64,000 bases of DNA, from NCBI RefSeq assembly GCF_022965805.1, contig NC_133102.1, positions 5,092,885-5,156,884 on the forward strand. Direction: 5' to 3'. Under the pieces are notes generated by a model that had not been told where the DNA came from, made no database searches, and was given only the letters and a program-made list of their open reading frames with translations. Each line of letters begins with the position of its first letter. Position 1 is the first letter of the stretch. The position numbers and the translations under genes are program-made. This DNA comes from Primulina eburnea. Lineage: Eukaryota > Streptophyta > Magnoliopsida > Lamiales > Gesneriaceae. Below, one piece after another: positions 7,772 through 64,000 of the stretch.

Positions 7772-7776
<5 letters not shown>

Positions 7777-7848
<72 letters not shown>
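7777..7848. repeat. (TA)n microsatellite
   Basis: About 70 bases of almost pure TA dinucleotides, interrupted once by CA near 7818. It forms the left edge of the first copy of the triplicated unit. Confidence 0.9.
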
Positions 7849-7852
<4 letters not shown>

Positions 7853-13141: not shown

Positions 13142-13925
13142 CATTTAAAATGAGACAAAACCACCCCAAACTTTTATGTCATCTCAACCTCAAAATACTT
13201 TTTTACACTTTATTCGACGCTAGAGTGGTCACATTTTACCGCCCTAGATTGGACCTCTCGGCCAAAACACCAAAAATCCAGAGCTGGCGCACTGGGACGG
13301 TCAAATCGTACCGCTGGGGCGCACTCTGCACACAGCTACAACAAATATTGCTTCCGAAACGCCTCTTCCTTTCATAATTTGAAAAGGTAGTAAACATGAA
13401 AGTTGTAGTCCTATGCCTTGGATTGCATCCTCAATTGGTCTCAAGTCATTTGAAGGTCTGACTAAAAAATTATGCTCATGTTACCAAAATGAGTCAGTGC
13501 AAGAACGACGATACATACGACATACTTCGGGACGCTTTTGACTTGTATTCCACATAGATTTGGACAAAACCCAAAAAACTAAAGTTATAGTCCTTATATC
13601 TTAAGCTTTTTTATTGGTAATATCCTCATATCATCTGGATCCATATCCAAATAATTATGCTAAAATCTGTAACCGTTGTCGCACTTCCATCTCATTTCTG
13701 CACATCAAAATTCCAATTCCACTTACCCTTACTCTACTTCATTTTCTCCCGTCTAAAGTATCACATTTACATCAATAATTCAATATTCAACTTACACAAC
13801 CAAACAACCAAATGAACATGAAATCAATAATTTAGCTAACATGACCAAACTTTTCATGCTCTCCATAATACACTCAATAATCCAAGTATGTAACATATCA
13901 ACATCATAATCGTCTTAACTCAAAA
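13142..13925. mobile_element. Inserted LTR-like fragment with decayed palindromic modules
   Basis: About 780 bases interrupt copy C; copies A and B run straight through the site. It has a richer base composition than its surroundings, and blocks such as ATGAAAGTTGTAGTCCTATG are of a kind I associate with plant LTRs. At 13216-13322 it holds two decayed GC palindromes. The exact ends are ambiguous by a few bases because A-runs flank it. Confidence 0.5.
13216..13322. repeat. Two decayed palindromic modules
   Basis: First module about 13216-13250 (CGACGCTAGAGTGG, then TTTTACCGCCCTAGA). Second module 13285-13322 (GGCGCACTGGGACGGT, then TACCGCTGGGGCGC), followed by ACTCTGCAC. The CGGT and TACCG cores, the GCGC ends and the CTCTGC tail match the LTR modules at 37174-37489 and 47463-47642. 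Confidence 0.65.
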
Positions 13926-34528: not shown

Positions 34529-36142
34529 TGTGGGGACCCGGACGCTAATCTAGTTCTTAATCGTCATTGAGACTAATTAATCACTTATAATAAACAGGGT
34601 CTAAATTTTTTTTCTAAAATACACAGCGGGAACGTAATGTAATTAAATTCAAATTACATATTAAACATAACATACAATTATTGTATAATCTACAATAATC
34701 CGACTAGGTTCAACTACATATCAGTGCTGAATCCTAAGTTGCTTCAAAGCCCGGATCTCCACGCTATCTAGTCCAGCCTCGTACTCTTCTTGACCCTGAT
34801 CCTAGCCCACCTGTTGCCATGCACACATACAAACAAGACAACAGCCGGATAACTCCGGTGAGATATAAATATCCCAGTATAAATCATGTATACATGCAAT
34901 CATCTAAACCATATAATCGCATATAACAGACAATCATATCATATATCAAAGTCATGATATGAATCAATAACAAGAATAAATCATATTCTAAACATGTACC
35001 CTAATCCGGAACATAAATCCATATCAAGAATAAAGTCTATTCTAAGCATGTACCAATATCAGGAACATAATTCAACATCCATCAGAATCAATCAATCAGA
35101 CTGTCACTCAAACTCGTGACTCTACGTTTTAGACTAGACTCAATCCTAGCCTAGGGATCCCGGTTTCCAGACATTGGCATTCCATATCGACCAACAGTAA
35201 TAGAAAAGACTCCAGTTCTATCCACGTCGATATAGTATCGATCACCAGAAATAGAAGAAGCTCTGTTTCTATCCACATCAGTATAGTATCGATCACCAGT
35301 AATAGAAGAAACTCCGATTCTATCCACATCGATATAACATCGATCAACAGTAATAGAAGAAGTTATGATTCTATCCACATCGATACAATACTGATCACCA
35401 GTAATAGAAGGAGCTATAATTCTATCCACATCGATAGCCAATTATCCAGCGACAAACTATGGCACTTCCGCCAATACAATATCTCATGACATCGTGCAAT
35501 GTGCCCGTGGTACTCCTACCACTATCAGACACTTCTGTCACAAAATTACTCGTCTAACACCAGTTATCTATAATTCAAGAGAACAAGTATATCAATCAAC
35601 TCAATGCAAATATCAATGCAATAAGTAAAGTATGTGATTTAGGAAAACTCGAGTCAAACCTCACCCGAATTGTGCAATCCCAACTCAACATTAATTTATA
35701 CCTTTATCTTCTCGCTCAGAAGAAGAAGAAGAAGTCCCGACTCTATCTCGGTCCATTCCCAATCTGGTAATAACAATACCGAACAGATATAATATCAATA
35801 TTCAATTCAATACATGTTCTGATCACAATAAAATCTGATCAATGTCAATTGAGATACGATCTAATCCATATCGACGATATCACGATATAATCAAAATCAC
35901 TATCGAATCTGTTCAATATCAATCAACTGATGTTTCGACGGCATAACAATACAGTCTTGATAACCCCGTCAGTCCAAACATCACAGATATAATACCAGAA
36001 CTCATAATTAATGTCGTTACCAGTCATAATCTCAATAACCATACATATCTGATATGAGTTCTCAGTCAAATCGACTCCAAAAATCATAACAATTACATAA
36101 TCAGTCTATTCTTCGATCTGGCTTCGATTTTACGATGTCTAA
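34529..36142 (-). repeat. Left (3') LTR of the outer element, first part
   Basis: 1614 bases, nearly identical to 51060-52675. It continues at 47160-47773 after the nested insertion; joined, the LTR would be about 2228 bases against 2231 for the right LTR. Includes the 51-base minisatellite. Confidence 0.95.
35189..35436. repeat. 51-base minisatellite in the LTR (about 5 units)
   Basis: Unit of 51 bases around TTCTATCCACATCGATA, then ATCACCAGTAATAGAAG. Because 51 is a multiple of three, frames stay open on the minus strand, giving a repeated DRYYIDVDRIG-like peptide. The same array is in the right LTR at 51719-51966. Confidence 0.9.
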
Positions 36143-37690
36143 TGATCGAGCAAAACTTGCACAGTAAAATCCCCAATAAAAATATGATTTTGTATGCTCA
36201 AAATAAATCGCAAGTGCACGATGTCAAGTAATAGTATAGTGTATATGAATACGAGTATCGTTCCACTGGAGACTGTATTTAACAATTATTATTTTAGTTA
36301 TTAAAACTTTAGCGACGAAATTTGATTGTTTGTTTATAACTACTAAAATGCAAGAAAATTAAATAAACAAGTTCAACGATTAAATGATAAAATATGAATG
36401 CTAAACCAATGGATTAAATTTCAAATGATAAAAGAATTTGTTGGGACTTCTGGTTCACCTACCCCTTATTAATTAATTAATTCGTTCGATTGTGTTCTAC
36501 GCTTCCGACAGGATTTCCTATTCAATTGAACACGCTCTCTCGAGCTATGCCAAACTAATTCACTCAATGAAGTAATTAAATGTCTTTAATCATTTATCAA
36601 GAATGAACCGCATTTCGATTGATGAAATCCCCTAGTTTTCGACCCTAAGGACTATGACTATCGGCACGTATCCAATTTCATATGTCTATGCAAATTGTAG
36701 ATCCGCAGATTATACTACTCGATCCTATCACTAGTTATTCTCTCGAACTCACTCGTGATATAAAATTGTCGTAAGAGTTAGCTACGCTCAAACGACACAA
36801 TAAAAATCGTAATACAATCAAGAGCAACGCACAACTCAAAATATAAATTAATCAACTAAAAGTTTGGGGTAGGATCCCCTTCAATCCCAACAAATATGAA
36901 AGTTAGCTACTAGAATTCATAATTAAAATAAGCAAAACAATGTTTAAACAAAGAAAAATAAACTAGAAATACTAGGCGTGACGAAATCTGCGAAGAACGA
37001 TGCCCGGAAACCGTCGAATCTTCAATCCAAGTGCAAAAGCTCTCCCCAGAAATCCTTTTTGGCTCTCCAAATCTGTCTGAATCCTCTTCAAAAGTCGACC
37101 CATCCTTTTTTCCATAGCAACCCCCATCCAAAATAAGGTAAGAAATCGCGTCCAAAATTTTCCAAAAATAGGCGGCGCTCGGGCGGTAGAAAAGTACCGC
37201 TCGAGCGCCACACTCTCTGTAAGTTGCTGGACTTGTGCGGCATTCGCGCTCGGGCGGTAGAAATATACCGCTCGAGCGCCACACTCTCTGTCTTGGCCCT
37301 TTGTCTTCTCGCGCCCGGGCGGTATAAAAGTACCGCTCGGGCGCCAACTTTCTGTAACGATGGCTTCCGAAGACACCTTCTCGCGCTCGGGCGGTAGAAA
37401 ATCACCGCCCGAGCGCCAACGTTCTGTCTTGTTTCCTCGGCTGGTCTTCTGTGGCGCCCGGGCGGTAAATTTCTACCGCTCGGGCGCCAAGTATTCTGTC
37501 CAACTTCTTGGATTCCACATTTTTCTCCGCTTTCCGACCATTTTTCCTGCAGATTCACCACACACGAGTGAGACATGATAAAATGCCAATGATTACTCTA
37601 AAATGAACAAAATGTAGATGAAATGCATGCATGCACAATGCAAACACAACTAAAACTAATGCAATAAACACGTAAAAACACCACCTATCA
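36143..37690 (-). repeat. 3' LTR of the Athila-like element
   Basis: 1548 bases, TGATCGAG to CCTATCA on the plus strand. Differs from the other LTR at a handful of bases and by one palindromic module. Contains the five-module array at 37174-37489. Confidence 0.95.
37174..37489. repeat. Array of five palindromic modules in the Athila-like 3' LTR
   Basis: Modules at about 37174-37210, 37245-37280, 37311-37345, 37383-37419 and 37453-37489. Each is GGCGCTCGGGCGGTA or a close variant, a loop of roughly 4-7 bases, then TACCGCTCGGGCGCC, followed within 3-6 bases by a TTCTGT or CTCTGT tail. Spacing is about 70 bases. Variants swap GAG/GGG and CTC/CCC in the arms while pairing is mostly kept. Frames reading GARAVIFYRPSA through these modules are a by-product. 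Confidence 0.95.
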
Positions 37691-39083: not shown

Positions 39084-40343
39084 TCAAGGCTCATCCTCGT
39101 CATGTTCCGGCGGTTGCACTCCGGCGGCACCCCCGTGCTGGTGATAATCATACTGGAACTGGAATGGGGGAGGAGGTAGCGGAGACGGCGGCACGGTCGA
39201 TGGGTCAACGCCCCCTTGCACAAGCAGCGATCGCATCATGGAGTCAATGTGAGACAGATGGTCGGTGACATACGAGTTGAACTGCCCTTGATGCGTTTGG
39301 AAGGTGAGATTCTCGGCCATCATATCGGTGTGAGTTCGCCGGCGGGGTGGTGGTGGACGGCGGCGTGGAGCGGCGGCGCTAGAGCCACCTAAATTTTCCT
39401 CCTCAGTGGGGAAGTCAATCTGTCGCTTCGCATACTTTCGCTTATCGTCTTCGATGGTAATCGGCTTCATGGGTTGAATCCACTCCTCGTCGTCCCGGAA
39501 TAGAACTCCCGCCCGGGCACACAACTCGGAGATAATTGTCGGGAAGAATAGACCGACGTGACTGTTGCGAGCACACAACATGATTTGAGAGTAGATAAGT
39601 GTGCCCACATTCACGTCGTAGCCGTGAGTTAACGCAAAAAAGAGAACCGCTCGTTCCTTTTGGACCTCGCTCTTATGCGATACCGGCATCATCCGTCGGG
39701 CTACAAATAAGTACCACATGGCAGCGTCAACGGTCAAGAATTTCTCGTCGAAACAGCTCGGCGGTCCGCCCACTGGTTTCCACATCGCACCCGCACCCGG
39801 ATGGCATAGTGCGGTGATAATCAAGTCATAGTTCGGGTCAGCAGCTAAAGCCTCAAAACGAGAGTTGTCGACCTCCGTCGTTTCCAACAGTGCATTGATA
39901 GTTGCCGAGTCACACGGGACGTGTACACCTCGAACAAACACCGTCCCATTTCTCCCCTCCACAGCATTCGCGTAAAATTCACGCACCACCGAAACTACCG
40001 CCGCCTTAGGATGATTGGAAAAAGTTTCCCATCCGCGCCGTTCCAATTCTATCCGAGGTCCTAGGTGCCTATCGGCAGTTTCTTTTCTAAATCCCCTCTC
40101 TACTATCGGATTTCTATTCATCTTGGCATGCTCATACCTGGCCCGAGCTTCTTCACTAACAAAGCGATGCCTATCAAAAGTCGAAGAAGAGGAAGAAGCG
40201 GAAGTACCTCTTTGTTTCTTCTTTGGAGCCATAGTAGTGGATGAGAGAGATTTTGGGGAAATCGGAGAAGATGACGCTTGAATTCCGAAGGATGAGCTTG
40301 CCCACGATGCTTGAGTCTTGATGGTAGGAGAGATTGCCTGCAA
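39084..40343 (-). CDS. Third ORF of the Athila-like element (plant transposon protein domain)
   Basis: 419 residues, uninterrupted, downstream of pol in the sense direction, where some Athila/Calypso elements carry an env-like frame. The central part (NRNPIVERGF, ERRGWETFSNHPKAAVVSVV, then VRGVHVPCDSATINALLET, about residues 75-170) matches the putative plant transposon protein domain often annotated on plant retroelement ORFs. A basic Ser/Lys-rich N terminus is followed by this globular domain and a Pro-rich C terminus (RRRPPPPRRR, then a PPSPLPPPPF stretch). No signal peptide or membrane segment is seen, so an envelope function is not supported. Two palindromic modules lie 107-206 bases upstream of its ATG. 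Confidence 0.8.
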   Translation of the reverse strand: MQAISPTIKTQASWASSSFGIQASSSPISPKSLSSTTMAPKKKQRGTSASSSSSTFDRHRFVSEEARARYEHAKMNRNPIVERGFRKETADRHLGPRIELERRGWETFSNHPKAAVVSVVREFYANAVEGRNGTVFVRGVHVPCDSATINALLETTEVDNSRFEALAADPNYDLIITALCHPGAGAMWKPVGGPPSCFDEKFLTVDAAMWYLFVARRMMPVSHKSEVQKERAVLFFALTHGYDVNVGTLIYSQIMLCARNSHVGLFFPTIISELCARAGVLFRDDEEWIQPMKPITIEDDKRKYAKRQIDFPTEEENLGGSSAAAPRRRPPPPRRRTHTDMMAENLTFQTHQGQFNSYVTDHLSHIDSMMRSLLVQGGVDPSTVPPSPLPPPPFQFQYDYHQHGGAAGVQPPEHDEDEP

Positions 40344-40449
40344 GAAGATGAGAGGAGAGTGAAAGGGGGTTAGGGATTGAGAGGAGTAATTTGGGAAATT
40401 TCGTGCAGAATGGGAAGGGGAAAGGGGAATTCGCGCTTATTAAAGCGGT

Positions 40450-40549
40450 CGCGCTCGAGCGGTAAAAAGTTACCGCTCGAGCGCCAACCGTCTGGAATCC
40501 AAAGTGAGTTGCGCGCTCGAGCGGTACAAAAATACCGCCCGAGCGCCAA
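40450..40549. repeat. Two palindromic modules upstream of the third ORF
   Basis: 40450-40486 (GCGCTCGAGCGGTAA, loop, TTACCGCTCGAGCGCC) and 40512-40549 (GCGCTCGAGCGGTA, loop, TACCGCCCGAGCGCC), each with a tail (CGTCTGG and TTTCTGTCCC). They lie between the end of pol and the third ORF, in the same sense orientation as the LTR modules. Confidence 0.95.
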
Positions 40550-40687
40550 CTTTCTGTCCCGAATCACACATTTTTTTTTTTTTTGAATAAAAACATGAAA
40601 TAACACTAAAATCAAATTGAATGCAAGATGAAGGGAAAGAAAAAATAGTTCTCAATTTATAGTCGAGAGCTTGACTGTCGGTCCGTC

Positions 40688-43501
40688 TCAGTTCGGATGA
40701 TCTTGGAACCGTGTGATTCCAAGTTGTGGCTCAACTGTGCCACCCATGTAGTGCTTGAGGCGCTGGGCATTGACCGTGAATGTCCCGTCCTTCCCATCTT
40801 TCAATTCGACAGCTCCCGATGGATGAACTTTCGAGATCACGAATGGACCGGACCATCGCGACTTCAATTTACCGGGAAACAAGCGCAACCGGGAGTTGTA
40901 GAGCAGAACACTTTCACCCTCCTTAAACTCTCTCTCGATGATTCTCTTGTCATGCGCCTTTTTGGTTTTTTCCTTGTAAGACAGTGCAAGATCGTAAGCC
41001 AAATTCCGGAACTCCTCCAATTGGTCCAACTGAAGCAAACGCTGTTCACCTGCATCAGTAAAATTAAAGTTTAGCGCTTTTGTGGCCCAGTATGCTCGAT
41101 GCTCTAACTCAACAGGTAGATGACATGCTTTACCAAACAAAAGCCTATACGGTGTAGTGCCTATAGGTGTTTTGAAAGCAGTCCTATACGCCCAAAGAGC
41201 ATCATCTAACCTCACCGACCAATCTTTCCTACTGACACCTACTACTTTCTCCAAAATTCGCTTAATCTCACGATTCGACACTTCCACTTGACCACTCGTC
41301 TGTGGGTGATAAGGGGTAGAGATTTTATGTGTGACACCATATTTGCTCAAAAGTTTTTCAAAGAGTTTGTTGCAAAAATGAGTGCCACCATCACTAATGA
41401 TTGCTTGTGGTGTTCCAAAGCGGTTAAAAATGTTTTTCTTCAAAAATTTTAGAACCACTTGAGCATCATTAGTGGCGTATGCTTCCGCCTCTACCCACTT
41501 AGACACATAATCCACCGCCACCAAAATGTATTTTTTCGTGGAAGAACTGGGAAACGGTCCCATGAAATCTATCCCCCATACATCAAAAACCTCACACTCA
41601 ATGATATTATTTAAAGGCATTTCGTGACGGTTAGAGATGTTACCTGACCGTTGGCATTTATCACAATGTAGCACATAAGAACGAGCATCTTTAAAGAGGG
41701 TTGGCCAATAAAAGCCATATTCGAGTACCTTAGACGCCGTCCTCGTTGGTCCAAAGTGACCACCTACCTCACGATCATGGCAATGGTTGAGAATCTTATA
41801 AAACTCTTCCTCCGCAACACACCGTCTTATCATGGAATCTGCACAAATCTTAAACAAGAACGGTTCCTCCCAAAAATAGTATTTCACGTCAGAAAAGAAT
41901 TTCTTTCGTTGGTGAAAAGATAGGTTTGGTGGAGGTGTGCCTGTGACAAGATAGTTAGCGAAATTTGCATACCATGGACAATTTCTCACCTCAAATAGTT
42001 GCTCATCCGGGAACCAATCATTGATAGCATGCTCAACAGAATCATTACAAATACATTCTAATCTAGACAAATGATCTGCTACCACATTCTCAACACCCTT
42101 CTTGTCCTTGATCTCTAAATCAAACTCTTGCAACAATAATATCCACCGAAGTAAGCGTGGCTTTGCATCTTTTTTAGCAAGTAAATATTTGAGGGCCGAA
42201 TGATCAGTGAAAACAATTATTTTGGACAAAACAAGGTATGAATGAAATTTGTCAAGTGCAAACACTACGGCTAATAATTCCTTCTCAGTTGTTGCGTAAT
42301 TTAATTGAGCCTCATCTAAGGTCTTACTTGCATAGTAGATTGTATGAAATACCTTGTTTTGTCGCTGGCCAAGCACGGCCCCCACTGCAGTGTCGCTGGC
42401 GTCGCACATTATCTCGAAAGGTAGATCCCAATCCGGTGCCACCAAGACAGGAGCCGTCACCAAGCGCTCCTTCAGATTCTCATATGCCTGTAAACAGTCA
42501 GAAGTGAAATCAAATGGCACATCTTTCATAAGTAAAGAAGAGAGAGGTTTTGCAATTTTTGAAAAATCTTTTATGAAACGCCGATAAAAACCGGCGTGGC
42601 CTAGAAAACTTCTAACTCCCTTTATGGACGCCGGAGGTGGTAACTTCTTGATGACTTCCACTTTCGCCTTGTCCACCTCTATCCCGTGCTCCGAAATCTT
42701 GTGCCCTAGGACAATGCCCTCTTGTACCATGAAATGGCACTTTTCCCAATTGACCACCAAGTTGGTTTCTTCGCACCTCATCAACACCACCTGCAAGTTC
42801 TGCAAACAGTCATCAAAAGACGGTCCGAAAATAGAGAAGTCATCCATAAATATTTCAAGAAAAATTTCTATCATATCATGGAATATAGCGGTCATGCAAC
42901 GTTGAAAGGTGGCGGGTGCATTACACAAACCAAAGAGCATTCTTCTAAAAGCAAAAGTGCCATAAGGACAAGTGAAAGTGGTTTTCTCTTGGTCCTCGGG
43001 CGCAATCATGATTTGGTTATACCCAGAATACCCATCTAAAAAACAATAAAACTCATGACCCGCTAACCTCTCAAGCATTTGATCAATAAAAGGGAGGGGA
43101 AAGTGGTCTTTTCGGGTGGCATCATTCAATTTCCTATAGTCAATGCATACACGCCATCCCGTGACAGTCCTGGTGGGTATTAGTTCATTCTTATCATTTG
43201 TAATCACAGTAATACCACCCTTCTTTGGCACACATTGAACAGGACTTATCCATGCACTATCAGATATAGGATAGATAATACCTGCATCGAGAAGCTTAAT
43301 CGTCTCAGCTTTCACTACCTCTTGCATATTAGGATTCAATCTTCGCTGAGGTTGCACAAGAGGTGAGTACTTGTCTTCCATCAATATCTTGTGCATGCAG
43401 ACTGAGGGATTGATCCCTTTGATATCCGCCACCTTCCATGCAAATGCGCCCTTGTGCGCTTTTAGAACCTCCACTAGTTTGGCTTCCATCACATCTGTCA
43501 A
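40688..43501 (-). CDS. Pol of the Athila-like element: RT, RNase H, integrase
   Basis: 937 residues in one frame. Reverse transcriptase with [13 protein letters not shown] and the FMDD catalytic box ([10 protein letters not shown]); RNase H starting [17 protein letters not shown]; integrase with an HHCC zinc finger ([13 protein letters not shown], then CDKCQRSGN), the D-D-E core ([37 protein letters not shown]) and a GPY/F-like [11 protein letters not shown] near the end. The frame is open a little before the first ATG ([12 protein letters not shown]), showing that pol once continued from the upstream protease. A deletion at about 43525 put the two frames out of register, so pol is no longer fused to gag-protease. 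No downstream stop inside the domains. Confidence 0.95.
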
Positions 43502-45503
43502 AGCGGCAGAAATAATGACAGGTAATGTCCACTTTCACTAGCACATCCTCAATCACTCCGCGGGGGTACTTGACAGACCTGTCAGCCAGTTGTAAAGACA
43601 TCCTCGTCGGCTTAGGCTCTCCTAATCCGAGTTTCCTGAAAACAGATAAGGGCATCAGATTAATACTTGCACCAAGATCACACAACGCTTTACGAAAAAC
43701 ATCACCAATCATGCAAGGGATAGAAAAACTCCCTGGGTCTTTTAGTTTCGGTGGGATTTTGTTTTGCACCAAAGCAGAGCAACTCTCAGTCAAGTTCACT
43801 GTCATGTGATCCTCCAATTTTCGCTTGTTAGCTAAGATGTCCTTTAAGAATTTGGCATAACTAGGCATTTGCATTAAAGCATCGGCAAAGGGAATATTGA
43901 TATGCAATTTTTTAAACACCTCAAGAAATTTACCGAATTGTGCATCTAGTTTTGCCTTTTTCAATGCTGCGGGGAAAGGCGGGGGGATAACAATCTTAGG
44001 ATGTGCCGTGGGTGCTGGTGTAGAGTTAGATGACTTACCTTTTGACGCCTCAGCATGCTCATCCGATACTTGGTTTTTCTCTTTCTCTCTAGGCTCCAAA
44101 ATCTTTCCACTCTTCAACTCAATGGCCTTCACTTGCTCTTTTGGATTAGTTTCGGTGTTGCTTGGCAAGGTGCCCGGCTCTCGATTTGCTATCATCTTGG
44201 CCAATTGCCCAATCTGAGTTTCGAGCCCCTTAATCGACGCATCTTGATTTTGAAGTCTAGTTTCAGTGGATGAAATAAACTTAGACATCATTTGCTCCAA
44301 GTTGGACTTTTCTTCTCTAGGAGGATCGGATCTGTACATTGGTTGTTTGCCATATTGTTGTCCTCCTTGCGGTCTAGTTTGACTGTTTTGACCGCCCCAT
44401 GAGAAGTTAGGATGTTGCCTCCACCCAGGATTGTATGTGTTCGAATAAGGGTCATGCCTTGGGCGGTTTTGGACTCCTACTTGATGCACCGGTGCTCCTT
44501 CGGGCACATAGAATGGATTGTCATCTTGACAGTCTTTCACATAGTGCTCACCCCCACATTTCTCACAGAATACCTCTTGCAAACGCATAGCCGTGCCACC
44601 CATGTTCAAGCCATCCAGTTTCCTGTTTAACACATCAAGTTGTGCAGTAATAGCAGATAAATCAGTTACCTGGTGAATCCCTACACTTTTCCGTTGATTG
44701 TTCCTGTCAGATTGAGGGTGATAACTGCTAGCAGCCATCTCCTCCAGTAGCTCATACCCTTCCTCAGCAGTTTTTCTCAATAGATTTCCACAAGCAGCAG
44801 CATCTATCATAGTACGATTAGGAGTGAGCAAGCCATAATAGAAGGTTTGAACGACTAACCCAAGTGGCAACTCGTGATGTGGGCATCTTCGTAATAGGTC
44901 TTTGAAACGCTCCCATGCCTCATATAGTGACTCTTGATCGAACTGAGCAAATATTGTGATGTCTGCCCGCAGCTTCATGGTCTTCGATGGAGGAAAGTAT
45001 TTGATGAGAAACGCCTTCGCCATGTCCTCCCATGTAGCTATCGAACCTACAGGTAAACAATTCAACCAAGCTTTAGCTTTATCACGCAAAGAGAAAGGAA
45101 ATAAACGCAGTCTAACAGCATCATCAGAAACTCCATTAAATTTAAAAGTATCGCAAATCTCAAGAAAATCCGCGATGTGTGTGTTTGGATCGTCCACAGC
45201 AGTTCCTCCAAATTGGACGGTGTTCTGAATCATCTGGATAATGGCTGGTTTTATTTCGAATTGGTTTGCCCGCACAATCGGCCTCACAATGCTGGGGCGT
45301 GCACCATCCAAAGAAGGTTGGGCATACTCTAACATGGGTATGCGGCGTGGCATCTCAATTCGTCTCTCGTTTTGGCGCTCCGCCTCCTGCTCTGGCTCGT
45401 GCCTCTCCATCAGTTCCTTAAGTCTTTGCTGTTGTCTTCGCCTGCGGAAAGTCCTTTCAATTTCAGGGTCACACTCAGGCTCCAAGTCAAGTGACTTTGG
45501 CAT
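43329..45503 (-). CDS. Gag-protease of the Athila-like element (3' end frameshifted)
   Basis: ORF of 724 residues. Retrotransposon gag domain in the N-terminal third ([20 protein letters not shown], then [19 protein letters not shown]), one zinc-knuckle-like [13 protein letters not shown], a Gln/Arg-rich linker, and an aspartic protease start with [19 protein letters not shown]. After VLVKVD (about 43530) the sequence jumps directly to the LPVII region just before RT, but out of frame, so the last ~65 residues are nonsense. The missing part includes the rest of the protease and the linker to RT. Confidence 0.92.
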
Positions 45504-45602
45504 GCACCGGAAGAGATATCTGAATTAAAATATGGAGTGTTAGTTCGGTAAAAATAAAATACACTAAAGAAAATAACTAAAAATATAATTATAGATTAAC
45601 AG

Positions 45603-45626: not shown

Positions 45627-47154
45627 TGATCGAGCAAAACTTGCACAGTAAAATCCCCAATAAAAATATGATTTTGTATGCTCAAAATAAATCGCAAGTG
45701 CACGATGTCAAGTAATAGTATAGTGTATATGAATACGAGTATCGTTCCACTGGAGGCTGTATTTAACAATTATTATTTTAGTTATTAAAACTTTAGCGAC
45801 GAAATTTGATTGTTTGTTTATAACTACTAAAATGCAAGAAAATTAAATAAACAAGTTCAACGATTAAATGATAAAATATGAATGCTAAACCAATGGATTA
45901 AATTTCAAATGATAAAAGAATTTGTTGGGACTTCTGGTTCACCTACCCCTTATTAATTAATTAATTCGTTCGATTGTGTTCTACGCTTCCGACATGATTT
46001 CCTATTCAATTGAACACGCTCTCTCGAGCTATGCCAAACTAATTCACTCAATGAAGTAATTAAATGTCTTTAATCATTTATCAAGAATGAACCGCATTTC
46101 GATTGATGAAATCCCCTAGTTTTCGACCCTAAGGACTATGACTATCGGCACGTATCCAATTTCATATGTCTATGCAAATTGTAGATCCGCAGATTATACT
46201 ACTCGATCCTATCACTAGTTATTCTCTCGAACTCACTCGTGATATAAAATTGTCGTAAGAGTTAGCTACGCTCAAACGACACAATAAAAATCGTAATACA
46301 ATCAAGAGCAACGCACAACTCAAAATATAAATTAATCAACTAAAAGTTTGGGGTAGGATCCCCTTCAATCCCAACAAATATGAAAGTTAGCTACTAGAAT
46401 TCATAATTAAAATAAGCAAAACAATGTTTAAACAAAGAAAAATAAACTAGAAATACTAGGCGTGACGAAATCTGCGAAGAACGATGCCCGGAAACCGTCG
46501 AATCTTTAATCCAAGTGCAAAAGCTCTCCCCAAAAATCCTTTTTGGCTCTCCAAATCTGTCTGAATCCTCTTCAAAAGTCGACCCATCCTTTTTTCCATA
46601 GCAACCCCCATCCAAAATAAGGTAAGAAATAGCGTCCAAAATTTTCCAAAAATATTTCTACCGCCCGAGCGCCACACTCTCTGTAAGTTGCTGGACTTGT
46701 GCGGCATTCGCGCTCGGGCGGTAGAAATATACCGCTCGAGCGCCACACTCTCTGTCTTGGCCCTTTGTCTTCTCGCGCCCGGGCGGTATAAAAGTACCGC
46801 TCGGGCGCCAACTTTCTGTAACGATGGCTTCCGAAGACACCTTCTCGCGCTCGGGCGGTAGAAAATCACCGCCCGAGCGCCAACGTTCTGTCTTGTTTCC
46901 TCGGCTGGTCTTCTGTGGCGCCCGGGCGGTAAATTTCTACCGCTCGGGCGCCAAGTATTCTGTCCAACTTCTTGGATTCCACATTTTTCTCCGCTGTCCG
47001 ACCATTTTTCCTGCAGATTCACCACACACGAGTGAGACATGATAAAATGCCAATGATTACTCTAAAATGAACAAAATGTAGATGAAATGCATGCATGCAC
47101 AATGCAAACACAACTAAAACTAATGCAATAAACACGTAAAAACACCACCTATCA
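45627..47154 (-). repeat. 5' LTR of the Athila-like element
   Basis: 1528 bases, 20 shorter than its partner; the difference lies in the module array. It should contain the promoter of the element; no obvious TATA box directly follows the modules. Confidence 0.95.
46658..46953. repeat. Array of four and a half palindromic modules in the Athila-like 5' LTR
   Basis: Full modules at about 46709-46743, 46775-46808, 46847-46882 and 46917-46953. At 46658-46674 only the second arm (TACCGCCCGAGCGCC) is left, and the preceding arm is replaced by direct continuation of the flank (CCAAAAATATTTC). The partner LTR has this module complete. Confidence 0.95.
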
Positions 47155-47159
47155 TCTAA

Positions 47160-47773
47160 CATGACAAGAACATCATATACGAATCCTATTCAATTCTGAC
47201 AATAGTCTAATTTCAAAACTTGTCAAAACGTAGCAAAACTTACGTCAAGTTGTAGTCGACGTCGATAGGAACACAATACCGTATTCAGATTCAAAATCGA
47301 ACGGACATATTTCTCGTAAATTAATTTCGAAATTTACGAACGACGCCTTTCCCCAAAGCTTTCCTTTCCCTTTCTTTCCTGATCCTTAACGTTTATATGT
47401 ATATATATATACACTCATGCTGCATACGAGAGACCAAGTGGCATTCTCACGTTTTGCATGACTGGCGCTCGGGCGGTAAGAAACTACCGCTCGAGCGCGG
47501 CAGTTTCTGCCCAAGATTTTCAACTTGCACCCTTGGCGCTCGGGCGGTAATATTCTACCGCTCGGGCGCCACATCTTCTGCCCGAGACACATTTCTGTTG
47601 AACATTGGCGCTCGGGCGGTCAAAAACCACCGCTCGGGCGCCACACTCTCTGCCCAACTTCCTCGAATTTCACATGTCGTCTTATTTTCATGTTCCGATT
47701 AATCCTTTCATAATCATATCAAATTATATATCAATAATTATAGATTACTAGGATTAAATTTCCGGGCATTACA
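47160..47773 (-). repeat. Left (3') LTR of the outer element, second part
   Basis: Continues the LTR interrupted at 36142; matches 52676-53290. Includes the (TA)n stretch at 47395-47412 and the three-module array. Confidence 0.95.
47463..47642. repeat. Array of three palindromic modules in the outer LTR (left copy)
   Basis: Modules at 47463-47500, 47534-47570 and 47605-47642, each with GGCGCTCGGGCGGTA or GGCGCTCGGGCGGTC and the facing arm, tails TTTCTGCCC, TTCTGCCCG and CTCTGCCC. In the sense (minus) direction a TATATATATA stretch follows about 50 bases after the last module. Confidence 0.95.
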
Positions 47774-47788
47774 TTTCTCCCCCTCTAA
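47774..47788 (-). promoter_or_regulatory. Polypurine tract of the outer element
   Basis: Minus strand TTAGAGGGGGAGAAA directly before the LTR start TGTAATGCCC. Confidence 0.85.
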
Positions 47789-49686
47789 GATATGATTTCG
47801 TCCCCGAAATCACAAACACTCAACTCGTGTTATACAGATAATCAGATCATATCTCAAATCAGATACCGGAAGGAGATGTACAGAATATGCAATAAGCTCA
47901 TATCAACAACATCATTCGTGATAAAATCAACCTCAGAACCATGGCTATACAACATCCGTATATACCAATCAATCAACTCATAACAATCAATATCCTTATC
48001 TGTTAATCCCAGTCAAAGACATATTCAATCTTCGGCTTCAAATACTAACAATCATCATCCGACGTTAGCATATTTAGTCTATGTATTATGAGCTATCCTC
48101 TTTTCTTCTGAATCAGTTCTATTTTCTTTATCAGATCACTGATCTTAGCAAATCTGCTCTCAAGCATCACTGTAATATCATTCCCATACGAAGGAAATTC
48201 ACAGTTCTCACGGTACAATACTTCAACTCAAGCTATTTCGATACTCGTTTAATAGCTATTATCATACAATAGTTTAAAAGTGACAATGAATCATGTCAAC
48301 TAGTGCTATAATCCAGCACTACATTTCCTGGATATCCTCCAGTATCAGGATAGTTCACTCCGACTATCCGTCAATCTATAAATCATAGATGAAAAATCAT
48401 GTTATACACTCAGCCAAAAGTATAAAATCAAACGAAAATTATAAAATCAACTTTGGCATTTAATACAATCTGACTCCTTTTCTGACATCTCTCTCAGTCG
48501 TCTGGTCATATTTGTACGCCATCCTGTACCATATAACGTATACAGATTTGAACAATCGTTCAATCATAACCACTATCTTGGCAAGATTACAGTAGTGTCA
48601 TCACACCATCTATAGAAATGTATTCCCATTTCTATTTAGAAATCAAATATCAAGATCATTAATCTAAAAGTTTCTATCTGTCTGTCTTCATCTGTCAGCG
48701 ATTTAGACATTTCAATACACATTCTGACATAACTGATTTTCATCTGTTTACTTCAAAACTGTCTATTCGAATTATCACACATTTCCTGTTACCAGAATAA
48801 TATTGAATCTACTATTGTGTGCATCTGACAATACCTGTCAAGTTCCAATTCGAATATCTGACACAAACAAATCAGTTAATAATATAAATTAAAGAAAAAT
48901 ACATACCTGGTATTCAGTTCTGACTATCAAAATCAAGTTCTGGACAGTCTGCTCAAACTTCTGAACTGCTTTAATCTTCAAAATCAGTTCTGACTCGACT
49001 GAACTGTGTGTAAGCTCAACGGTTCATAACAATCGGTATCAAACACGGATTCAGAATGATAACAATATCAGATCAGATTCAGAATATCAATACACAATAC
49101 TGATTTAATAACTGCATAGAATCAATTTCTGACATTTCGAAAATTCTGCTATATTCAATGTCGTTCTCCTGTATTCAATGTCGTTCTCAGCCACTGACCA
49201 TGGTCTCACAGTGCTACAATCAATCAGTATACTATCTTCAGATATCACAGACTCTGAATACAATCTGTTACAATCCCAATTCATATCCAAACAATTCTGT
49301 ATACAACACTCTCAGTACCCAGAATATTCAATATAAATGTCAACTGTTCGATTCAATCAATCATATGCTACGAATATATCAAAAGATCATAGATAAAACG
49401 AGCATAAAATCATCAGAACACTTCCGAGCACAGGATTTATCAACCCATGATTGGAACTGAAGTACTTTACAGAGAAACATATACTTAGATGTAACTCTAA
49501 CTTTCAAGCAGTAATTCTTTCAACTGATATATCATTTCTCTCAATTCAATCAATATCAGTCTATAAGAAATTCTCAAATGAAACCAATACCTGGAATAAC
49601 ATCAAGGCCGAAGTCACTCTCCCTGATACAGGACCAACCTGAAATCTCATCTGCCAGCCTATAGCAAACTTCCTGCTACTAGTAAA
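47789..49686 (-). other. Non-coding interior of the outer element
   Basis: No domain-bearing frame on either strand; pol is absent. Repeated CTGACT, CAGTTC and ATCAGA words give a monotonous texture, perhaps decayed internal repeats. Confidence 0.6.
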
Positions 49687-50110
49687 TCAATCCCTGATAG
49701 GCTCATCTTCAGTCATCAACTGAATACATAAGGAATTACTCCATTCCTTTCGATATGATAGAGGTACAAACCTTTGATAAAATTCAACTTTGAAAAGTTT
49801 CCACGTAATCGTGAAACCACGCTGTGCTATGGCTTCCCGGGTTATCAGCCACCAACTCCTAGCGACTTCCCGTAGTTGATTCCCAACCAATTTAATTCTG
49901 CACTCATCTGTGAATCCCAGAAATTCAAACAACATTTCAATCTCCTCCAGCCAAGTCTCACAATCAGCTGGTGCTTCAACACCCCTCAATATCGGTGGTT
50001 GAAACGACTGAAACCTTATCATCTGTGTTTCCATCAGAGTTTCAGACACATCCATCTGATCATACGATGTACTACCCCGTTCTGGAATCCTTCTAGGAGG
50101 AATATCTGAT
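49687..50110 (-). pseudogene. Ty3-type gag fragment in the outer element
   Basis: 122 codons with a retrotransposon gag core: CETWLEEIEMLFEFLGFTDE, then WKLFKVEFYQRFVP, the pattern of the Ty3 gag domain. The frame continues upstream to about 50110 (PPRRIPERG). There is no zinc knuckle, protease or pol downstream, so it is a remnant. Confidence 0.85.
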
Positions 50111-50393
50111 AATCACAGGCGTTAGTAGTAACAAGAGACAAATCCGTCTCAATCCCAATCCTGATCAGCTTACCTCTGATCAAGAATTGGTTCTGATCCA
50201 GTTTCAAATAATACATATTACCAAATCAACTCAGATATTCAGGTAACATGTAGCTTAAGATACAGTAAAAACATACTGAAATCTTAGCATATACAATGTA
50301 GTTTCAACATTATTTTCAATCATGTGCCATATAAATCCAGGCAGTAAAACATAATATCATGCTAGCATACACAATGTAATTCCACACTATACT

Positions 50394-50933
50394 CATAGTT
50401 GTCAAGGGCGCAAGGCGCACCGAGGTGCATAAAGGCTCTGGAGCCTGAGGCGCGAGGCGCAAGGCGAGGCGCGCCTCTTACTGAAGCAAGGCGCACATTT
50501 TTAATTTTTTTTTAAAAATATATTTAGCTTATAATAATATGTTAAAATATGAAATAATTAAGTCACAATATCACACAAAACAACAAATAATTAATAAGTT
50601 CATAACAATAAGTAACACAATTAAAATTCTTCAATCATCCTGAGAAGTTACGTTTGGGGTTGGTTTGGGCTTTTACATTTTAAGTTACTATTAAAAAAAA
50701 CTGAGAAGTTGTATTTTCAAAATGCAACATCTCTGTTACTGAATTTGTTTTTAAAAAAAAAAGCAACTCAGGCGCACCTCAGGCGCACCCGAGAGCCTTT
50801 CCAAGGCAAGCCCAGGCGCGCGCCTGGGCGAGCCTTTGGGAATCGTTGCGCCTGGGATGGCCCCAGGCGCAACGCCCACGCCTGGTGGCGCCTCTCGCCT
50901 TGAGGCGAGAGGCGCTCGCCTTTGACAACTATG
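50394..50933. mobile_element. hAT MITE with GC-rich palindromic ends
   Basis: 540 bases, ends CATAGTTGTCAA and TTTGACAACTATG, flanked by a perfect 8-base duplication ACTATACT (50386-50393 and 50934-50941). Both ends are rich in GGCGC/GCGCC words; the right end contains a strong foldback (GCGCCTCTCGCCTTGAGGCG and its reverse). AT-rich centre without coding capacity. Inserted in the interior of the outer element. Confidence 0.92.
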
Positions 50934-51037
50934 ACTATACTCAATCATATGCTAGCCAACACATGCAAGGAAAGAAAACTCATTCTACCCCGCTCACTCT
51001 CCTCTATCTCAGTGCTAAGGAACCTACAGTTCAAGGA

Positions 51038-51054
51038 CCTAGGCTCTGATACCA
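51038..51054 (-). promoter_or_regulatory. Primer-binding site of the outer element (tRNA-iMet type)
   Basis: Minus strand TGGTATCAGAGCCTAGG, five bases from the right LTR, is the usual initiator-Met primer site of plant LTR elements. It confirms the minus orientation. Confidence 0.9.
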
Positions 51055-51718
51055 CCTGTTGTGGGGACCCGGACGCTAATCCAGTTCTTAATCGTCATTG
51101 GGACTAATTAATCACTTATAATAAACAGGGTCTAAATTTTTTTTCTAAAATACACAGCGGGAACGTAATGTAATTAAATTCAAATTACATATTAAACATA
51201 ACATACAATTATTGTATAATCTACAATAATCCGACTAGGTTCAACTACATATCAGTGCTGAATCCTAAGTTGCTTCAAAGCCCGGATCTCCACGCTATCT
51301 AGTCCAGCCTCGTACTCTTCTTGACCCTGATCCTAGCCCACCTGTTGACATGCACACATACAAACAAGACAACAGCCGATAACTCCGGTGAGATATAAAT
51401 ATTCCAGTATAAATCATGTATACATGCAATCATCTAAACCATATAATCGCGTATAACAGACAATCATATCATATATCAAAGTCATGATATGAATTAATAA
51501 CAAGAATAAATCATATTCTAAACATGTACCCTAATCCGGAACATAAATCCATATCAAGAATAAAGTCTATTCTAAGCATGTACCAATATCAGGAACATAA
51601 TTCAACATCCATCAGAATCAATCAATCAGACTGTCACTCAAACTCGTGACTCTACGTTTTAGAATAGACTCAATCCTAGCCTAGGGATCCCGGTTTCCAG
51701 ACATTGGCATTCCATATC

Positions 51719-51966
51719 GACCAACAGTAATAGAAAAGACTCCAGTTCTATCCACGTCGATATAGTATCGATCACCAGAAATAGAAGAAGCTCTGTTTCT
51801 ATCCACATCAGTATAGTATCGATCACCAGTAATAGAAAAAACTCCGATTCTATCCACATCGATATAACATCGATCAACAGTAATAGAAGAAGTTATGATT
51901 CTATCCACATCGATACAATACTGATCACCAGTAATAGAAGGAGCTATAATTCTATCCACATCGATA
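51719..51966. repeat. 51-base minisatellite, right LTR copy
   Basis: Same five-unit array as at 35189-35436, with only one or two base differences, so no unit was gained or lost since insertion. Confidence 0.9.
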
Positions 51967-52978
51967 GCCAATTATCCAGCGACAAACTATGGCACTTCCG
52001 CCAATACAATATCTCATGACATCGTGCAATGTGCCCGTGGTACTCCTACCACTATCAGGCACTTCTGTCACAAAATTACTCGTCTAACACCTGTTATCTA
52101 TAATTCAAGAGAACAAGTATATCAATCAACTCAATGCAAATATCAATGCAATAAGTAAAGTATGTGATTTAGGGAAACTCGAGTCAAACCTCACCCGAGT
52201 TGTGCAATCCCAACTCAACATTAATTTATACCTTTATCTTCTCGCTCAGAAGAAGAAGAAGAAGTCCCGACTCTATCTCGGTCCATTCCCAATCTGGTAA
52301 TAACAATACCGAACAGATATAATATCAATATTCAATGCAATACATGTTCTGATCACAATAAAATCTGATCAATGTCAATTGAGATACGATCTAATCCATA
52401 TCGACGATATCACGATATAATCAAAATCACTATCGAATCTGTTCAATATCAATCAACTGATGTTTCGACGGCATAACAATACAGTCTTGATAACCCCGTC
52501 AGTCCAAACATCACAGATATAATACCAGAACTCATAATTAATGTCGATATCAGTCATAATCTCAATAACCATACATATCTGATATGAGTTCTCAGTCAAA
52601 TCGACTCCAAAAATCATAACAGTTACATAATCAGCCTATTCTTCGATCTGGCTTCGATTTTACGATGTCTAACATGACAAGAACATCATATACGAATCCT
52701 ATTCAATTCTGACAATAGTCTAATTTCAAAACATGTCAAAACGTAGCAAAACTTACGTCAAGTTGTAGTCGACGTCGATAGGAACACAATACCGTATTCA
52801 GATTCAAAATCGAACGGACAGATTTCTCGTAAATTAATTTCGAAATTTACGAACGACGCCTTTCCCCAAAGCTTTCTTTTCCCTTTCTTTCCTGATCCTT
52901 AACGTTTATATGTATATATATATATATACACTCATGCTGCATACGAGAGACCAAGTGGCATTCTCACGTTTTGCATGA

Positions 52979-53159
52979 CTGGCGCTCGGGCGGTAAGAAA
53001 CTACCGCTCGAGCGCGGCAGTTTCTGCCCAAGATTTTCAACTTGCACCCTTGGCGCTCGGGCGGTAATATTCTACCGCTCGGGCGCCACATCTTCTGCCC
53101 GAGACACATTTCTGTTGAACATTGGCGCTCGGGCGGTCAAAAACCACCGCTCGGGCGCC
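52979..53159. repeat. Array of three palindromic modules in the outer LTR (right copy)
   Basis: 52979-53016, 53051-53087 and 53122-53159, identical in layout to 47463-47642. Confidence 0.95.
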
Positions 53160-53295
53160 ACACTCTCTGCCCAACTTCCTCGAATTTCACATGTCGTCTT
53201 ATTTTCATGTTCCGATTAATCCTTTCATAATCATATCAAATTATATATCAATAATTATAGATTACTAGGATTAAATTTCCGGGCATTACAGTATC

Positions 53296-62636: not shown

Positions 62637-64000
62637 TGTAAGGCCCGAGATTTTATTACCGTAATCTGAGATTAATCTGAAATAATTTATTGAGTAATCG
62701 ATATGATTATAGACAGAAAAGATCGGACCGGGAAAGACAAGATAATACATGAATATGCGCGAGCAGTCCAGTAGCCAACGTTTTGGGACAGAAGCTTTGG
62801 CGCATATGCGCCGGATTGAGGCTTGCGAAGCCGAGCATTGAGACAAGAGGTCTCGCGCATATGCGCGAGTTATGCAGAACAAGAACAAGACATTTGGCCT
62901 TACTTATGCAACGTGTGTGTGTGTGTGTCTATATATATATATATCAGCCTATATTCCTTCAGATGGATTAAAGGAAAAGAAACGGAGGGTCAGGGGAGTT
63001 TAACTTCCTTCGAAAAGTTTAAGTCGATTTGGGAGAAATCCGTCCGTCTGATTTTAAATCTGAGTATAGTACCGAGTTCTTAGCGACGACAGCTACAACT
63101 GGACGTAAGTTTTGTTACGTTTTGATATGTTTTGAAATTATGGTATTGTCAAAATTGAATATGAATCATATATGGTGTTTCTGATACAGTAGGCATTATA
63201 TATCTGAAGTCAGATTGAAAAACAGACTGTGTATGAAATTGTTATGAATTTTCAGAAGTGATTCGATTGTAATTATACCAAATTGATATCAGACTTATGG
63301 TATTATTGGTTATGTGGTATTTGAATTGATATCTGATTTATATTGCATCACTGGGTATATTGATATTATTCAGACTTGAATCAGATAAGTTGTTGATTCA
63401 TATATACTGAGATTGTATTACCGATATTGCGAGACTGTGCAGAATTGAAATGATATTTTGTATTGATATTGATTATGGGCCGGATTATTATATCTGTGAT
63501 GTTGGGACTGACGGAGTTATCGAGATTGTATTATTATGCCGTCGAAACATCCGTAAATTGATATTGATCAGATTTGGTATTGGTTGAGATTGTATTGTGA
63601 TATCATATGTCGATTGGCATTGATCAGATTATGTTTTGATTTGAGTATTGATTCAAAACAGGTTTTGAACTGAGTTATCTACTGATATTGTATCTATTCG
63701 ATTGTCATTATCAGATTGGGTATGGACAGAGTTGAAGTCGAGACTTCGTATTCGTCAGACCAAGAAGATAAAGGTATAAGTCAATGTGGTATTGGGAGAT
63801 CGACTTGAGTCGGTTTAGACTTGAGTTTCCCTAAATCACATACTTTACTTTATTGCATTGATTTGATTGATGTACTTGTTCTCTTGATTTATAGATAGCA
63901 GGTATTAGACGAGTAATCTTGTGACAGAAGCACATGGTAGTGGCGGGATCGCCACGGACACATTGCACGATCTCACAAGATATTGTATTGGCAATAGTGC
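62637..64000 (+). mobile_element. LTR of a relative of the outer element (truncated by the window)
   Basis: Begins TGTAAGGCCCGAGATTT, matching the sense start TGTAATGCCCGGAAATTT of the outer element's LTR. From about 63400 it follows that LTR block by block: GACTGACGGAGTTATC, GCCGTCGAAACATC, AGAAGATAAAGGTATAA, CTAAATCACATACTTTACTT, TATTGTATTGGC. It is plus-oriented, opposite to the outer element. Neither its inner end nor a partner LTR is in the window, so it may be a solo LTR or a full element. A (TG)n(TA)n stretch at 62913-62944 gives a candidate TATA. Confidence 0.85.
62752..62869. repeat. Variant palindromic modules (GCGCATATGCGC type)
   Basis: 62799-62812 GGCGCATATGCGCC preceded by GGGACAGAA (the reverse of the TTCTGTCCC tail); 62852-62869 CTCGCGCATATGCGCGAG preceded by GAGACAAGAGGT; and a half module ATATGCGCGAG at 62754-62764. 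Same place in the LTR as the CGGGCGGTA modules of the outer element, about 60 bases before the TATA stretch. Confidence 0.9.

Follow-up and report, generated by a model that had tools for sequence, protein, structure and literature searches.

Tandem repetition within U3 is an already known feature of LTR elements, as in the BII boxes of tobacco Tnt1 and in the enhancer repeats of retroviruses. Mobile GC-rich palindromes likewise have precedents, namely the GC clusters of yeast mitochondria, the PstI palindromes of Neurospora and the bacterial REP/BIME sequences. For an anti-silencing function, the nearest described analogue is provided by the targets of the VANC proteins of Arabidopsis VANDAL transposons (PMC5735166, PMC10398659). 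Tandem repeats are also already known in plant Ty3 elements such as Retand, where they occur along with supernumerary ORFs downstream of pol and ahead of the 3' LTR; the Retand repeats are reported to be family-specific, and these ORFs to be mostly antisense and to contain a TRP28 domain (PMC11963269, PMC7264820). A preference of LTR elements for insertion into palindromes is described in another study as slight (PMC6911290) and has no bearing on arrays that lie within LTRs.

Here we analyzed arrays of GC-rich palindromic modules in a window of 64,000 nucleotides of the Primulina eburnea genome (C2:5092885-5156884 of 812 Mb) and their relatives elsewhere in that genome. Like the Tnt1 BII boxes and the retroviral enhancers, the modules are head-to-tail repeats in LTRs, in part of the groups close to a TATA-like box; however, they are common to LTRs with unlike flanks, consist of paired palindromes in a fixed geometry, and use two alternative site sequences (hereafter alphabets) with thousands of copies each. 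With the mobile GC-rich palindromes they share a high number of GC-rich palindromic copies, but they reside in the main contigs of a plant, form arrays of at least two modules, and lack stem compensation. They resemble the VANC targets, which are short, dense, noncoding motifs of one orientation, different for related VANCs, with one motif shared by the unrelated element AT9TSD1 (PMC5735166). In contrast, the VANC21 motif has nine bases, the word palindrome does not occur in that paper, and VANDAL carriers encode VANC (PMC5735166), whereas the carriers of the modules are LTR elements for which a VANC-type protein is hypothetical. One carrier, element A, is similar to Retand in that both a tandem array and a further ORF separate its pol from its 3' LTR, but its internal array is made of the LTR module and its ORF3 lies in sense and contains a PF20167 domain. 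No description of the modules was found among the titles and abstract openings of the open-licence papers listed. On balance, the sequence evidence favors the reading of the modules as putative DNA operator arrays in the U3 regions of LTR promoters.

The carriers in the window are referred to as elements A, B, and C (Table 1). A Pfam scan of the long ORFs of element A detected gag, protease, RT, RNase H, integrase, and PF20167. Element A is inserted at the inner edge of a B LTR, and the self-alignment implies a 5-bp target duplication (52668-52672, common to both halves); element C (62.7-64 kb, plus strand) is a divergent relative of element B. Element B itself seems to be a tandem (LTR-internal-LTR-internal; 34529-36142 with 47155-53290) that became interrupted when A inserted at the LTR edge. 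The window also encodes a DUF868 protein and contains, within repeated segments at 7.5-14.5 kb, about 76 bases (7774-7849) that match their own reverse complement at 94.7%. Rfam models applied to the window at gathering scores gave one match and none on the modules; this match, to snoR71 (44869-44974, plus strand, 51.4 bits against a gathering score of 40), lies on the antisense strand of the A gag region and is perhaps a captured or chance match.

Table 1. Coordinates of the modules, their carrier elements, and neighboring features in the window.
Feature	Position	Strand	Remarks
5-module array, element A 3' LTR	37174..37499	-	36-bp paired site, 5 nt, TTCTGYCC-like tail
Element A 3' LTR (Ty3/gypsy type)	36143..37690	-	self-BLAST partner 45627-47154, 98.1%; gag and pol domains
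Element A 5' LTR	45627..47154	-	self-BLAST partner of 36143-37690
Array in element A 5' LTR	46638..46963	-	4 full modules and one without left arm
Internal 2-module array of element A, between pol and ORF3	40450..40560	-	
TATA-like stretch TTTAATAAG	40437..40445	-	directly downstream of internal array; putative role
ORF3 of element A	39084..40232	-	382 aa from ATG; PF20167 domain; start MAPKKKQRG
gag of element A	43329-45524	-	fixes sense strand (gag and pol span 40688..45524)
pol of element A (Ty3-type: RT, RNase H, integrase)	40688-43534	-	fixes sense strand
3-module array in one element B LTR	47464..47655	-	LTR 47155-47773; sense by gag match
3-module array in other element B LTR	52981..53172	-	LTR 52668-53290
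TATA-rich stretch	52903..52929	-	start ~52 nt downstream (sense) of last B module
Two decayed modules	13216..13323	.	starts 13216 and 13288, exactly 72 bases apart
Two second-alphabet sites (GGCGCATATGCGCC, CGCGCATATGCGCG), element C	62799..62867	+	upstream of TATA

A preliminary description of this DNA had reported about 17 full or partial modules in two retroelements, each with paired arms around a short loop and a TTCTGYCC-like tail, repeated every ~70 bases. This anatomy is confirmed by five exact modules at 37174-37489 with start-to-start steps of 71, 65, 72, and 71 bases, and the count now stands at 17 full modules (5 and 4 in the A LTRs, 2 between the A genes, 3 and 3 in the B LTRs), one half module in the 5' LTR of A, which has its right arm at 46659 and has lost the left one, and the decayed pair. 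A 24-position mask fits all 17 window modules with zero mismatches, and the gap from GGT to ACC is 8 bases in every one of them; no mask match occurred in 10 order-1 Markov simulations of the window even at up to 8 mismatches. The tails of the array at 37174..37499 lie on the plus strand, the sense of element A being on the minus strand. The flanks of the internal array of element A are unlike those of the LTR arrays. A genome-wide pattern search returned 5,593 matches for the 15-base arm and 9,029 for the full palindrome when its loop was allowed a length of 0-30 bases, versus 0 for each reversed control, and the loop measured 8 bases in 50 out of 50 distinct listed places of the full palindrome. 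When only the outer GGCGC/GCGCC and the tail were fixed, 7,115 places were found versus 2 in the control.

For the analysis of module anatomy, loci were fetched around listed motif matches, all from the first 25 Mb of contig C1; such motif-based finding favors intact arms, and array neighbors were not individually selected. In total, 254 modules from 73 module-bearing loci and the window were scored; L076 contained no module, overlapping or extra loci (L001, L003-L008, L015, L017, L024, and L025) are omitted from the anatomy, covariation, and flank counts, and L072, L078, and L080 are additionally omitted from the spacing and column statistics. Every fetched module-bearing locus (73/73) has an array of at least two modules; of 170 module spacings, 122 measure 71-72 bases and 34 measure 62-67. 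Among arm pairs at gaps of 0-24 bases, 251 of 260 have a gap of 8, and the tail begins 5 bases past the palindrome in 192 of the 219 modules with a tail score of at least 6. Information content amounts to 0.85-1.93 bits in the arms (columns 1-13 and 22-34), with the minimum at the Y/R positions, to 1.1-1.4 bits in TTCTG of the tail, and mostly to less than 0.3 bits in the spacers. Identity within families A (18 loci) and B (27 loci) amounts to 0.934 and 0.924 for arms, 0.736 and 0.574 for loops, 0.642 and 0.556 for tail plus spacer, and 0.52-0.78 for the 250-bp flanks; across families, palindromes are 0.777 identical versus 0.283 for spacers. The TTGGCGC edge of the module may resemble E2F-type sites, and TGTC in its tail may resemble auxin-response sites; the latter is disfavored because 61% of units have T as their sixth tail base.

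The second alphabet was encountered in element C, where GGCGCATATGCGCC and CGCGCATATGCGCG occupy a place equivalent to that of the B array, before the TATA box, with GGGACAGAA 5 bases ahead of the first. A 14-bp palindrome SGCGC-N4-GCGCS followed after 5 bases by TTCTGYC has 4,481 matches in the genome versus 0 in the control, and about half of the 100 listed matches of SGCGC-N4-GCGCS have, as judged by eye, an ATAT center. Two copies of GCGCATATGCGC within 30 bases form 20,302 pairs genome-wide versus 0 in the control; the distances among 50 listed GCGCATATGCGC pairs are 22-23 bases in 33, 20 in 2, 31 in 9, and 41-42 in 6. In eight ATAT loci hand-picked from the 100 listed SGCGC-N4-GCGCS matches, taken together with element C, neighboring distances of 22-23 bases account for 32 of 64, those of 31 and 42-55 also recur, and a CAGAR tail stands at 5 bases in 21 of 23 matches. 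The main distance of GCGCATATGCGC pairs (22-23) is also that by which the arms of the 36-bp module are offset. Since the second alphabet keeps this pairing, we prefer to read the 36-bp hairpin as a pair of 14-bp near-palindromic sites with centers 22 bp apart, about two helical turns, a single paired geometry on which the site sequence is either GCGCYCGRGCGGT or GCGCATATGCGC.

The two-site reading competes with one in which the modules are RNA hairpins, either in the element transcript or in an antisense RNA, that serve export, packaging, or stability. Single modules do fold far better than shuffled sequences on either strand (z from -5.6 to -8.1, 8 folds), and the internal array would sit within the genomic RNA. 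However, in 226 units two variable position pairs show no association across the arms (OR 1.46, p 0.52; OR 1.56, p 0.22). A second set comprised 71 distinct 49-mers from 100 listed GGCGC/GCGCC-plus-tail matches, after removal of duplicated rows, rows with a different length, and one 49-base row that lacked the arms. In these 71 copies, pair 5-30 shows a strong association (p 3e-6) that runs counter to Watson-Crick pairing, with T·G or C·A in 62 of 69, and pair 8-27 is not associated (p 0.79). None of the 21 other inner-arm changes is compensated (10 A·C, 7 G·T, and 4 other), so that A·C is no rarer than G·T, and 14 of the 21 are C>T or G>A. With wobble pairs included, 167 and 168 of 186 copies retain pairing of the antisense strand at the two variable position pairs, compared with only 93 and 82 for the sense strand. 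The sense RNA also folds more weakly than the antisense one in the three LTR modules that were folded; for the internal module, the sense fold is the more stable one, by 0.4 kcal/mol. Finally, the ATAT alphabet divides the module into two small palindromes. From the missing arm covariation and the unpaired sense strand we conclude that pairing in the sense transcript is not kept; a sense-RNA hairpin with covariation was rejected on the absence of arm association, the 0 of 21 compensated changes, and the A·C mismatches in sense RNA.

A sense-transcript hairpin is thus disfavored, an antisense hairpin without compensation is unsupported, and RNA hairpins of either kind are very improbable as the role of the modules. 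The earlier statement that arm changes mostly keep pairing holds only if G·T pairs on the plus (antisense) strand are counted, the same changes being A·C mismatches in sense; its proposed examination of compensatory changes turned out negative in both copy sets, contrary to the structural reading, and its suggestion of hairpins in the LTR transcript finds no preserved sense-strand pairing. As a separate observation on positions 5, 8, 27, and 30 of the first alphabet (type 1), TCGG is frequent in both arms when these are read along a single strand, the antisense one, as though C>T changes had affected only one strand; TCGG in both arms on one strand is not expected from a symmetric palindrome.

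Another possibility is that the modules are methylation-dense landing pads kept for their CpG content. The observed/expected CpG ratio is 1.35 in arms versus 0.99 in flanks, and the predominance of C>T or G>A among the inner-arm changes agrees with this idea. We nevertheless hold it to be extremely unlikely, given that CpG density leaves unexplained the exact 22-bp pairing, the tail, and the ATAT alphabet, which is devoid of a central CpG.

Returning to the paired sites, we clustered the flanks of 78 arrays by nucleotide similarity. On the tail side they form six multi-member groups (38, 20, 7, 5, 3, and 3 arrays) and two singletons, and on the opposite side eight multi-member groups and three singletons. 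The tail-side group of five represents the internal region of A-like elements; this accounts for one of the six groups, so five LTR flank groups remain. Modules lie inside LTR pairs in A, B, L065/L086, L071/L087, and L059/L098. The carriers that could be classed by protein are Ty3/gypsy elements of different depth: A, L086, L087, L089, and L059/L098, the last by tblastn and its LTR pair; gag, RT-RNase H before integrase, and an LTR pair are present in A, L086, and L087. The pol identity to L089 is about 30% for A, about 38% for L087, and about 77% for L086. The carrier of H (L078) gave no protein match in this test.

The origin of the sharing by derivation of one element from the other was rejected, because the six multi-member groups (five LTR, one internal) have no detectable tail-side similarity and the spacers do not match between families. 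Contrary to what such derivation would predict, the modules are not restricted to two elements, being present in 9,029 exact copies and in several unlike LTR groups. The idea that they form a unit of their own, common to LTRs with unalike surroundings, is upheld by the unlike flank groups, the 0.283 spacer identity, and the exchange of whole arrays described below.

The claim of a constant orientation relative to the element's sense strand stands for part of the carriers. All clear module orientations agree within 70 of 73 module-bearing loci (L072, L078, and L080 are mixed), and the tail is on the antisense strand in A and B of the window as well as in three further protein-checked families, L065/L086, L071/L087, and L020. 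In flank group F (L059/L098), however, pol is on the tail's own strand, the arms still reading CCGA on the sense strand as elsewhere. In the locus of L063 with L089 (C1:17313400-17322000), Ty3 pol is inverted between direct LTRs ~7.1 kb apart as compared with its relative L065/L086, and this locus is probably rearranged.

The two alphabets are mutually exclusive in the 82 fetched stretches (including L098, the partner end of L059): 74 contain type 1 only, 8 the ATAT type (type 2) only, and none is mixed. Homologous LTRs carry one alphabet or the other as whole arrays. In a cross-type comparison of flanks that omits L093, 6 of 8 ATAT cases (L090, L091, L092, L094, L096, and C) showed homology to type-1 LTRs on each side of the array, and L095 and L097 on one side only; L096 matches element B at 78% from the first bases past the array. 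This two-sided homology across alphabets implies that related LTRs have swapped arrays, through either recombination or template switching. A tree was built from the 19 rows that contained enough of the R-U5 region, and 9 of its 16 inner branches are open. On it, the four ATAT rows require four changes, as do shuffled labels (mean 3.8), and the starred branches alone force one change only. The AU test rejects a single ATAT origin in these LTRs with p 0.016, and less strongly, with p 0.0485, when the long-branched L092 is left out.

Cassette-like exchange of this kind would also be expected if the modules were palindromic repeats that have no function and were propagated among element copies by gene conversion or template switching. 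Slippage would be possible between the direct CGCTCGGGCG copies, which lie one in each arm at a distance of 22 bp; a single-site unit next to L079 (C1:23297909) fits a 22-bp loss between them. Such an explanation is quite improbable in view of the restriction of conservation to the two sites and the tail, against the low spacer identity between families, the fixed spacing, and the use of one geometry with two different site sequences.

A role of the paired sites in transcription is suggested by their location. TATAWA occurs within 60 bases downstream (in sense) of the last module in 31 of 78 arrays, versus 4 of 78 upstream of the first module; it is missing from this downstream interval in 47 of 78, and most of the 31 positive arrays are B-like LTRs related by descent. 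The TATA start follows the last module by 48-57 bases in B-like LTRs, by 4-6 bases in 3 of 7 D-like loci, and by 134-139 bases in group E. The LTRs of group A have only an TATTTTTGG-like stretch, most of them reading CCTATTTTTGG or a close variant 1-3 bases past the last module, and no TATA was seen after the arrays of groups F and G. That TATA proximity is seen only in part of the groups slightly lowers our confidence in the operator reading. Internal arrays have a comparable arrangement: in four A-like relatives, CTTTATATG or CTTTATAAG comes next (TTTAATAAG in the window), then a pyrimidine-rich stretch, which in the window precedes ORF3. We infer a putative second promoter for ORF3 behind the internal array; the pyrimidine-rich stretch may also serve as a splice acceptor.

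ORF3, which lies downstream of the internal array in sense, starts with MAPKKKQRG, presumably an NLS-like sequence. An extra ORF with such a start behind its own array would fit a further explanation, namely that the modules are targets of a VANC-like anti-silencing protein that is encoded by some elements, exploited by others, and strips methylation from LTRs. The properties of VANC targets outlined above are in line with it, as are the two alphabets on one geometry and the sharing by unlike elements. On the other hand, Pfam scans of the long ORFs of A, L086, and L087 revealed no VANC gene, the examined ORFs of L086 and L087 have retroelement domains only and no PF20167, and the predicted structure of ORF3 is uninformative (pLDDT 39.9), with no solved relative found for ORF3 as a candidate binding protein. 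We therefore regard a VANC-like system as rather unlikely.

The fixed spacing of about two turns with an unconstrained spacer, the letters conserved without compensation, the two alphabets, and the promoter-near place in part of the families match paired DNA-binding sites. Among the roles listed in the preliminary description, protein-binding promoter repeats thus fit best, by TATA placement and by the two alphabets on one geometry, and pairing preserved by arm changes is not supported. According to the operator reading, a sequence-specific protein would bind both sites of one module on one face of the DNA, and several occupied modules would switch on the neighboring promoter or protect it from silencing; in element A, the internal array would have this effect on a separate ORF3 transcript, and the operator cassettes would be swappable between LTRs. 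Since the sites are common to unlike element families, the host is the more probable source of the putative binding protein. Activation and anti-silencing are inseparable on the present evidence. Going further, we tentatively propose a genome-wide operator code, possible but still doubtful, in which paralogous DNA-binding proteins would read two, or maybe more, alphabets that exclude one another and share a 14-8-14 plus tail geometry, families would swap whole arrays, and the operators would record a promoter contest and also drive the ORF3 transcript.

LTR promoters are usually regarded as family-specific, whereas throughout this 812-Mb genome a single precise cis-unit is common to LTRs whose flanks are unlike, and either alphabet occurs, on one geometry, in homologous LTRs. 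The modules may thus offer a handle on the proteins that control mass expression of retrotransposons in plants and on the switching of controllers by the elements, and a module is short enough to be used as bait for the putative binding protein. If the proposed operator code is real, many thousands of operators would constitute a record of a running contest over the activation or silencing of promoters.
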